A stretch of 64,000 nt of DNA. It comes from Anoplopoma fimbria (lineage: Eukaryota; Chordata; Actinopteri; Perciformes; Anoplopomatidae). Location of the stretch: the NCBI RefSeq assembly GCF_027596085.1, contig NC_072472.1, positions 11,124,219 to 11,188,218 of the forward strand, written 5' to 3'. Shown one piece after another: positions 36,066 to 39,000 of this stretch. The notes beneath the pieces are model-generated. The model was not told the DNA's origin. It saw only the letters and a program-made list of their open reading frames with translations, and made no database searches. How positions within the stretch are numbered: the first letter of the stretch is position 1; every line of letters begins with the position of its first letter. Both the position numbers and the translations under genes were made by a program.

Positions 36066-39000
36066 TTAGAAGTGATAAAAAGGATACTGTTCCAAGTAGG
36101 AGGGTACAAACGCCACTTCTTTGGAGAACCCGACGGGACACGAGAGCTTTTCCAGTTCTTCTTCGTACAGACTCAGTGACTCAGTCGATGGGGAAGCCTG
36201 TTGACAAGCAGCAGGGAAACAAATGTCAGTTGATATTATATTTAACTGAGCCACAATGAAATTAAAAAGAACTCCCTTCATTAGCTTGTTTCCCTTAAAT
36301 AATCTAATTTGAAACTACGTTTTATATTTAACTATCAACTATTAAGCTTAAAATTCAGAACCCTTTAATTCCTCCCATTATAACACTGCCATTCTCTCCC
36401 TGACTGATACCCAACTGGTATAACTGTGATGCGTTCCCTCCTTAAAGTATTTCCTGCCCAGACAAATACGTCAAATAGAGGATGCAAACATTTTCACAGT
36501 TTCACTGGTGCTTTAAAGATTGGTTCTCAATAAAAACAGTTTAGAAGTGATTGGAGCATCAAAAGTTTACTGACAGTTTGCACTAAACATACTCAGCAGT
36601 TACTAGAAAAGGGTAAGACTCACCTGTGTAAGATATTTCCCAGAGGGACGCAGGACCTTTATTGACATATTTAAAGTCAGAAGCAGGAACTCCCATATAG
36701 AGTCTACGGAAAGCAGTTAGGTACAGACAATTTGAACAATGACTTCTCTATTCTGCATTTATGTAATATCACAGAGTATATACTGTTTATATAAAAATAT
36801 ACAATGTAAAAAAATACAGAAACCTTCTTCTGGCTTCCTGGATGATGGGATTGCAGTCAGTTCATTAATTACGTAATCAAACATCTTTCCTTCCTGGACG
36901 TACTTCTTTAGCCCAGGGACACAGTCCCCAATCAGTATCTGAAACACACAACTATACGCTCAGGTTTTTTTCAATTGGAAAATCGTTTTAAATGTATAAT
37001 TATAATTATATATAATAATTAGCATTGTTAACAGCGACTAATGTGTCTTCAGTCAGTTATTTTGAGCAACAGATAGTTTTGGAGGTGCCCCTCCACCTGA
37101 AGCATGTACCAGGAAGCAAGTTTAATGGGTTAGTCAGCTATTACTGGGCTCAACTCTGAGTCATCATTCCTACAGAACCCTGATCGGGACAAAAGTTTAC
37201 ATTAAATTGACTATTAATAAAGATCAATAGATATTTTTACAAGTAGGTTGGTGGAACCATAGACTGTACATAAGAAATGGACTCGTCGTCACGTCATCCA
37301 TTGTTTTGTGGTTTTGTGGTTTCGAAGCCTCAAGTTCGGCATTTTGGCCATCGCCATTTTGGATTTTGGCCATCTCCATATTGTTTTTTTTGCAACCAGT
37401 GAACAGAAGTTATCATATTTGGACTGCAGAGGAGTAATGCAGTAGTAGAGATGCCGTATACGGCTTTGGTAGCGGCCTGTCAATCACATGGTAGCCATGC
37501 CCTAAAGCCTACTTCACTTTATGGTCTATTTTACTCTAAATGGGACCTTAAAATACTAAATGGAAATCATGCTGTATTTAAGACTTGGAACTAGCGATTG
37601 AGATCATGAACTCATGGTTACAATGTTTACTAATGCAATAAATCAAGTGAGAGTAGGGTCATTTCCTCATAGACTTCCATTCAATCAGACTTCTTTTTGC
37701 AAGAGGAGTCGCACAATGATGGACATTAGAGAGAATGCAAGTTTAAGACACTTTGCAATGGCTTCACTTTTCAGAACAGGAGGTTTCTGCGTGGGTAGAG
37801 ATATCTTGCTGTTTCATGCTTTCCTTTGAGTCCACCCTGGATTTAAAACAAATATTTGAACAAACTTGGGGATAGCTAAAAAAAACAATATATCCATCAT
37901 TGCGTTTGGAGCTGCATTTCAATTGCTCAAAGATTCTTCATTCCTGAGAGGGCTCCTGAAAGTGTTGATGCTTTTTACACTCTTTCTCCATCACTGCAGC
38001 TCAGAATAACATGAGGTGATAATTGGAAAGTAAAATTATTGGAAAATAATCCTCACAATTAATGAGCTACGATAATAAATGCAAAGTTTGTTAAAATATA
38101 GCTTATCCGGCATAACCTCGCTCAGATTGGAGAGTTGGATTGGAGATGGTCACTGGTTTTTTTCATATTGTGGATGCACACGAGGATGCACATGCATGTA
38201 TGATGCTTTACACAGTTCAACCAATATTTTCACACTGATTAACAGGTTTCATGATCTGCTGTCTATTCACAATTTTTAATAGAGAGAGCCCAAAAAAACA
38301 CTGATCAACAGGTGGTGATAACTGGCCAAGATATGCTGCAATGCTCAGGGAAAGACGACTGCAAGCCGGTAAAGATCTAAAGAATGCTGGATTTAAATAA
38401 CAGAATCTGTTTTGTAAAATGTTAAATGAAGACAATGAAATTAACTTAACAGATTTGTTAGAACCTGTTTGTTCACGAGAAAAACCCAAAGGTTATTCAG
38501 GTGAACATTACATTACATTACATTACAGTCATTTAGCAGACGCTTTTATCCAAAGCGACTTACAGGAAGTGTATTCAACATAGGTATTCAAGAGAACTAC
38601 TAGTCACCAGAAGTCACAAGTGCATCTCCTTTCTTAAACAAGCATCTCAAAGCATAAGCCAGAGCAAAAGTATAGTGCAGAGGCAGATTACTACGAAAAC
38701 AATAATTGCAACAGACTAATCCGAATATAGTAAGTGCTACAAACTACTACGAATAGGATAAGTGCAGTAAACAAATACAAATTCAATAAGTGCAGCGAAC
38801 TGATACGAATACAGTAAGTGCAGCAACTAATACGAGTGCAATAAGTGCTACGAGGAAGGCTCCGGGTAGTACTTCCTGAAGAGGTGAGTTTTCAGCCTGC
38901 GCCTAAAGATGGGCAGCGACTCTGCTGTCCTGACGTCAGTGGGGAGTTCATTCCACCACTGAGGGGCCAGGACAGAAAAAAGCTGTGACCGGGTGGATCG

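Follow-up and report, generated by a model that had tools for sequence, protein, structure and literature searches.

Here we report that the minus strand of the window, by which we mean the whole 64,000-nucleotide stretch of DNA analyzed, carries two tandem spermine synthase genes, assembled from the sequence and named sms A (42829-35887) and sms B (54044-45629, upstream of sms A), and that sms A encodes Glu282 at the position of Asp276, the proposed general base of human spermine synthase (SMS). The best explanation, to which we give an about even chance, is that sms A encodes a weakened spermine synthase that would be able to pair with the sms B product. From the sequence, we infer reduced activity of sms A, dimer sharing, and expression of the gene.

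Both genes consist of 11 exons in an open frame, which encodes 367 residues in sms A and 360 residues in sms B, and their splice ends are plausible (GT-AG or U12). By the consensus of the U12 class, each sms gene has two U12-type introns, an AT-AC intron 6 (ATATCCTT...CAC) and a GT-AG intron 10 (GTATCCTTTT...CAG), which in sms A occupy 39521-39692 and 35918-36087, respectively. The marks of a pseudogene (stops, frameshifts, and broken splice sites) are absent from sms A, with no stop or frameshift in its 1,104 coding bases. A preliminary description of this DNA had taken exon 10 of sms A for the final one and seems to have missed exon 11 (35917-35887), which lies behind the second U12-type intron. 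The Pfam search of the whole 652-Mb genome with PF17284 (N-terminal synthase domain) gave four matches, namely sms A, sms B, and two matches on C12, taken as spermidine synthase. The features of the two genes are as follows.

42757..42829, minus strand, sms A exon 1 and start; a 27-bp in-frame tandem repeat at the start codon (MAMKHYTAD + MAMKHYT) gives nine extra residues
42028..42148, minus strand, sms A exon 2, N-terminal domain
41496..41583, minus strand, sms A exon 3
40317..40381, minus strand, sms A exon 4
40214..40316, minus strand, sms A intron 4, identical at 103/103 bp to sms B intron 4 (49279-49381)
40038..40213, minus strand, sms A exon 5
39693..39847, minus strand, sms A exon 6, with GGGDGG (Asp201 equivalent) and the Glu220 equivalent, followed by the AT-AC U12-type intron
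39431..39520, minus strand, sms A exon 7
36824..36938, minus strand, sms A exon 8, the stretch of the preliminary description
36861..36863, minus strand, sms A GAA codon, Glu282, at human SMS Asp276
36624..36703, minus strand, sms A exon 9
36088..36197, minus strand, sms A exon 10, 6 bp shorter than in sms B (no GN), followed by the U12-type GT-AG intron
35887..35917, minus strand, sms A exon 11, stop TGA, protein end WFFYSVWKK*
53999..54044, minus strand, sms B exon 1
51971-51851, minus strand, sms B exon 2
50468-50381, minus strand, sms B exon 3
49446-49382, minus strand, sms B exon 4
49278-49103, minus strand, sms B exon 5
48525-48371, minus strand, sms B exon 6
48371..48373, minus strand, sms B GAT codon at the end of exon 6, Asp replacing Glu220 of human SMS
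48206-48117, minus strand, sms B exon 7
48000-47886, minus strand, sms B exon 8
47923..47925, minus strand, sms B GAC codon, the usual Asp at the Asp276 position
46897-46818, minus strand, sms B exon 9
46083-45968, minus strand, sms B exon 10
45659-45629, minus strand, sms B exon 11

The replacement of Asp276 by Glu, the central claim of the preliminary description, was confirmed: exon 8 of sms A reads ...GAT TAC GTA ATT AAT GAA CTG ACT GCA... (FDYVINELTA), with GAA at 36863-36861 compared to GAC at 47925-47923 in sms B. In the phmmer alignment, residue 282 of sms A falls on residue 291 of the PDB chain 3c6k, with no gaps in that stretch; we take residue 291 to be human Asp276, presuming a 15-residue offset from the chain length of 381 versus 366 residues for the human protein. 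Glu is abnormal at this position, which is occupied by Asp in 117 of the 120 listed homologs (Glu in three) and in 208 of the 230 fetched homologs (4 Glu, 7 gaps, 1 Arg, and 10 sequences not covering the column), and Glu occurs in no canonical (Asp-clade) sms found. With Asp in 208 of 230, a frequent natural Glu variant of sms is ruled out, and the result that would have spoken against the preliminary description, Glu in single-copy sms genes of other fishes, did not appear in the same two counts, which were made irrespective of copy number. Outside sms A, Glu is found in proteins from Sebastes fasciatus (P0016), Cottoperca gobio (P0063), and Eleginops maclovinus (P0116), the first two being annotated as 'spermine synthase-like', and since these three database relatives cluster with sms A, a private mutation or an assembly error is ruled out. 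The fourth Glu record results from misalignment, as the snake isoform concerned, P0216, skips that exon. Asp201 and Asp276 are treated as active-site acids of SMS in the accessible part of PMC3585406. Excerpts of PMC12812037 assign the deprotonation of the amine in human spermidine synthase to Asp173, the equivalent of Asp276, and call the mechanism of spermine synthase similar. A literature search for D276N with spermine synthase found no papers.

Phylogenetic analysis of exons 6-11 with column 276 removed placed sms A, Sebastes, Cottoperca, and Eleginops in one clade (99/96). It sits in a 17-row set (100/100) of the two window copies, P0005, and 14 rows from species that we class as perciform, the order being checked for eight taxa. 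sms B falls with Pungitius, Gasterosteus, and Cyclopterus (95/80), which puts the fish of the window near Cottioidei. A fragment search added a fifth clade member, Pagothenia P0180 (129 residues), which has Asp at 276 and is sister to Eleginops (100/99); a branch with 98/98 support separates these five from all other rows, and a tree constrained to unite the four Glu rows to the exclusion of Pagothenia was rejected (AU p 0.0008). At least two changes at 276 are needed on that tree, which we interpret as a single gain of Glu and a single reversal to Asp; Glu was thus probably ancestral to the paralog and reverted once in Pagothenia. An acidic residue at 276 and Asp255 are kept in all five clade members, and GGxDGG in three of the four that have exon 6.

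Sebastes belongs to Scorpaenoidei, and Cottoperca, Eleginops, and Pagothenia belong to Notothenioidei. Most likely, sms A is an old tandem paralog that originated inside Perciformes or at the root of the group, its ancient origin resting on the 99/96 and 98/98 branches, the synonymous divergence, and the shared Glu; sisterhood of sms A and sms B on exons 6-11 was not rejected (AU p 0.171). At the substitution rates of fishes, the dS of 0.415 found in exons 8-11 (see below) corresponds roughly to tens of millions of years. Related paralogs were found in four named species only. The profile search, in which 7993 candidates were scored, listed canonical proteins of Perca, Sander, Gasterosteus, Pungitius, Cyclopterus, and Notothenia and no A-type protein from these six genera among the best 120 of 372 matches; as it covered predicted proteins, this absence is no proof of gene loss. 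The public model of Eleginops P0116 is without the GGGDGG of exon 6, owing either to mis-annotation or to the dcAdoMet site being truly lost in this lineage, and the N-terminus of the Cottoperca model is non-standard. Among the literature matches listed, nothing concerned a fish sms paralog, and a search for spermine synthase, pseudogene, and teleost found the gene named once, in a table, in the accessible part of the text.

The other changes near the Glu codon that the preliminary description had listed are real, namely Glu254 to Gly, KKYM to RKSM, and the two-residue GN deletion at the start of exon 10, but two of them need correction in detail. The change of EDC to GDC keeps the conserved Asp255, which is Asp in 120/120 listed homologs, and the Tyr of KKYM is itself variable (88 His, 28 Tyr, 1 Phe, and 3 gaps among the 120 listed; Ser in sms A). 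The gate loop reads IPISME in sms B and IPSSRK in sms A, and in the alignment it is altered near the amine site in the sms A clade as well. In exons 6-11, 96 columns show conservation of 97% or more in the 117 other listed homologs; at these columns, sms A deviates 12 times, P0016 16 times, P0063 20 times, and P0116 25 times (13 gaps besides), compared to 0-2 deviations in eight Asp-type fish proteins (sms B, P0001, P0002, P0003, P0004, P0010, P0014, and P0022), of which all except sms B were among the 117 defining the columns. The changes in sms A are more than chance. The excess at near-invariant positions in sms A and its relatives favors an alternative that we regard as possible, if doubtful, in which sms A is near-functionless and slowly decaying, has stayed readable by chance and through gene conversion, and carries the Asp to Glu replacement as one of many relaxed changes.

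The gene conversion itself is evident from the synonymous divergence between sms A and sms B, which rises from 0.039 in exons 2-5 (4 changes in 105 sites) through 0.126 in exons 6-7 to 0.415 in exons 8-11 (24 changes in 75 sites), exons 2-5 and 8-11 differing with a Fisher P of 3e-7, and from intron 4, which is identical in the two genes over 103/103 bp. The 5' half was exchanged recently between sms A and sms B, and the 3' end was not. The protein tree of exons 2-5 alone is no proof of conversion, as holding the A clade together was not rejected (AU p 0.386). The preliminary description had set a normal N-terminal part against a changed catalytic part; we see this contrast too, but the recent conversion of exons 2-5 explains the normal part with no need to invoke selection on the dimer domain. 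Selection for dimerization is replaced as its cause on the evidence of dS and intron 4, and within the converted tract sms A shows no excess conservation (omega 1.28, 0.38-6.25). For tandem pairs in general, a conserved N-terminal half can reflect gene conversion rather than selection, which is a trap for readings of 'domain-specific' conservation.

This result bears on a further alternative, in which a dead sms A pairs via its N-terminal domain with sms B and tunes or stabilizes it, as the trypanosome prozyme does with AdoMetDC. SMS acts as a dimer via the N-terminal domain (excerpt of PMC3103547), dead partner paralogs are described at least two times among polyamine-related enzymes (excerpts of PMC5201418 and PMC3663545), and the N-terminal domain of sms A is intact, with an SpmSyn_N match of 131 bits. 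We nevertheless consider a regulatory pseudoenzyme quite unlikely: gene conversion, not selection for pairing, explains the intact N-terminal part, Glu is a mild swap in a protein that keeps the Asp255 and Asp201 equivalents, and for several perciforms with a canonical protein the A-type protein is absent among the best 120 of 372 matches. The nature of the Asp to Glu replacement suggests weakening only, not catalytic death, of sms A. If sms A were dead and yet paired with sms B, fishes would have a polyamine pseudoenzyme.

sms A evolves fast and under much weaker constraint than sms B, but not plainly neutrally. On the assumption that dS is split evenly between the two lineages, omega in exons 8-11 is ~0.53 for sms A (bootstrap 0.28-0.96) and 0.09 for sms B (0.02-0.21), and sms A reached an omega of at least 1 in a share of 0.016 of the bootstrap replicates. 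When the 26 amino acid differences between A and B in exons 8-11 were polarized with eight Asp-type proteins (seven named perciforms and P0005), 21 fell on sms A, 3 on sms B, and 2 were unclear. Neutral decay was simulated on the assumption of 0.1 indels per substitution, of which 75% shift the frame. At 0.2 changes per site, exons 8-11 stayed stop-free in 7.5% and free of both stops and frameshifts in 0.06% of 5000 runs; for exons 6-11 the corresponding values were 1.7% and none, 0.2 per site being too high for exons 6-7 given their lower dS, and at 0.1 they were 10% and 0.14%. The identity test is compatible with neutrality if the orthologs are 0.1 apart per lineage, as the neutral mean for exons 8-11 is then 0.66 and the observed values are 0.63-0.77. 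A plain pseudogene is not supported, given the open 11-exon frame, the simulation, and the omega below 1 in exons 8-11.

These data cut both ways for the slow decay of a near-functionless sms A. An intact frame over the whole coding sequence despite a dS of 0.415 in exons 8-11 is unlikely under the simulated decay, moderately so on stops alone (7.5% for exons 8-11), the bootstrap of omega in exons 8-11 argues for remaining constraint, and long readable relatives exist in Scorpaenoidei and Notothenioidei, although each of the two public models contains an odd stretch. Decay is nevertheless favored by the neutral-like evolution of exons 2-5 since the conversion (with a wide interval), by the few relatives found, the Eleginops model among them looking broken, by the variation between Asp and Glu inside the clade, and by the start region of the gene. 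The CpG observed/expected ratio is 0.21-0.28 around the sms A start (42529-43829) versus 0.53-0.71 at sms B (53744-55044), as if the CpG-poor sms A start region were without the open promoter of sms B. In the stretches compared, the homology of the two start regions is limited to ~160 bp (71%). We place slow decay close behind the weakened-enzyme reading.

Several other elements surround sms A. At 43515-44138 on the minus strand, ~0.7 kb upstream of the gene, lies a transposase ORF (Pfam DDE_3) that looks Tc1-like by eye. Two related minus-strand ORFs without a Pfam match, at 38848-39348 in intron 7 of sms A and at 35001-35582 downstream of sms A, look like retroelement remains; intron 7 is 2,492 bp long in sms A versus 116 bp in sms B. 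A Thr-rich repeat ORF (20983-22077) and a secretin-family 7TM (7tm_2) ORF (30879-31385), both on the plus strand, are possibly parts of an adhesion GPCR gene adjoining sms A.

An acid swap was also observed at a second position, in the canonical perciform enzymes. The position of human Glu220 carries Asp (MLDID or alike) in sms B, in the named perciform proteins P0001, P0002, P0004, P0011, and P0022, and in P0005, as well as in the Cottoperca paralog and the distant protein P0191; sms A has Glu there. The 120 listed homologs show 84 Glu, 9 Asp, 11 Tyr/His/Asn, and 16 gaps in this column, and we think that several of the odd letters are mis-spliced U12 introns, Cyclopterus and Gasterosteus being unreadable there. 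In the public models of fish sms, U12 introns seem to be sometimes mis-spliced (VYID, VHID, and ISFDQ for LEIDQ; Pagothenia ending GQYPFISSP), which can imitate active-site changes. We take Glu124 of human spermidine synthase as the equivalent of SMS Glu220, and the equation of this position with motif 3 of the aminopropyltransferase study cited next is likewise our own. According to section 10 of PMC11107197, as far as excerpted, the spermine synthases of that study have Glu and plant thermospermine synthase has Asp at motif 3; Glu124 contacts the dcAdoMet ribose (excerpt of PMC12812037). The canonical perciform enzymes seem to tolerate this adjacent acid swap, which tempers any claim that the Asp to Glu change killed sms A.

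Elsewhere in this fold, Asp/Glu switches distinguish thermospermine synthases from spermine synthases. A comparable shift of sms A in its product or substrate preference was also considered, and we judge it very improbable. Glu for Asp at motif 2 together with Asp for Glu at motif 3 mark the plant thermospermine synthase (excerpt of PMC11107197), and the gate loop near the amine site is changed in the A clade; position 276 is, however, outside those motifs, at which sms A has not this Glu and Asp but the acids of SMS, namely Asp at residue 207 (Asp201, GGGDGG, motif 2) and Glu at residue 226 (Glu220, motif 3).

The domain content and predicted fold are those of a spermine synthase. All three Pfam domains of sms A score above the curated cut-offs (SpmSyn_N 131, Spermine_synt_N 49, and Spermine_synth 107 bits). 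Structural models were made for the Sebastes relative and for the Pungitius protein as an Asp-type control, and they speak to the fold and not to catalysis. The Sebastes model (mean pLDDT 86.7, pTM 0.69) has human spermine synthase 3c6m as its best PDB match (Foldseek E 2.5e-51, TM 0.72, rmsd 5.6), with residues 281-290 of the gate loop at 63. The control (87.1, pTM 0.77) is equally low there (residues 271-280 at 66 and 281-290 at 63), and a low gate loop is therefore no peculiarity of the paralog.

In the weakened-enzyme reading that we prefer, Glu at 276 would have been inherited from the ancestor of the paralog, with a complete protein of the spermine synthase fold still encoded. The Glu carboxylate would still lie at the gate-loop mouth, from where it could take the proton from the amine of spermidine, but one methylene further out and next to the altered loop (IPSSRK), which would make for a slow or condition-limited aminopropyltransferase, presumably sharing its dimer interface with sms B. 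The relaxed evolution of sms A is in line with a weakened enzyme. Counted against it are the lack of constraint on exons 2-5 since the last conversion, the CpG-poor start, the few relatives, and the Asp of Pagothenia, which also means that Glu is no fixed mark of a dead enzyme. The five related paralogs, four with Glu and one with Asp, amount to a natural experiment on the strictness of the Asp276 requirement, and in this genome the paralog lies next to a normal copy; an active sms A would mean that the accepted view of the general base, Asp only, is too strict.

A broader proposal, in our view rather unlikely, is that a paralog specific to perciforms, its catalytic Asp changed to Glu in the ancestor, was retained over tens of millions of years in the role of a non-standard partner or of an altered aminopropyltransferase and would be the vertebrate equivalent of the trypanosome polyamine-pathway pseudoenzymes. 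The literature found for aminopropyltransferase and pseudoenzyme held no paper evidently on such a case. Compared with vertebrate SMS (human 3c6k/3c6m), sms A is alike in its domains, in the exon structure it has in common with sms B, in a 490-bit match over residues 11-367, and in the predicted fold of its Sebastes relative, and differs in Glu for Asp276, the altered gate loop, 12 of the 96 near-invariant 3' positions, the two-residue deletion, and the nine-residue N-terminal repeat. With Sebastes P0016, Cottoperca P0063, and Eleginops P0116 it has the clade and the Glu in common, each of these paralogs having its own further changes, such as the missing GGGDGG of Eleginops and the Asp at Glu220 of Cottoperca. 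Thermospermine synthase (ACL5 type) is likewise an aminopropyltransferase set apart by active-site Asp/Glu swaps, but at positions other than that of sms A. The trypanosome AdoMetDC prozyme and the dead DHS paralog resemble sms A as diverged paralogs of multimeric polyamine-related enzymes; they differ in that the partner there is reported to be dead and activating.
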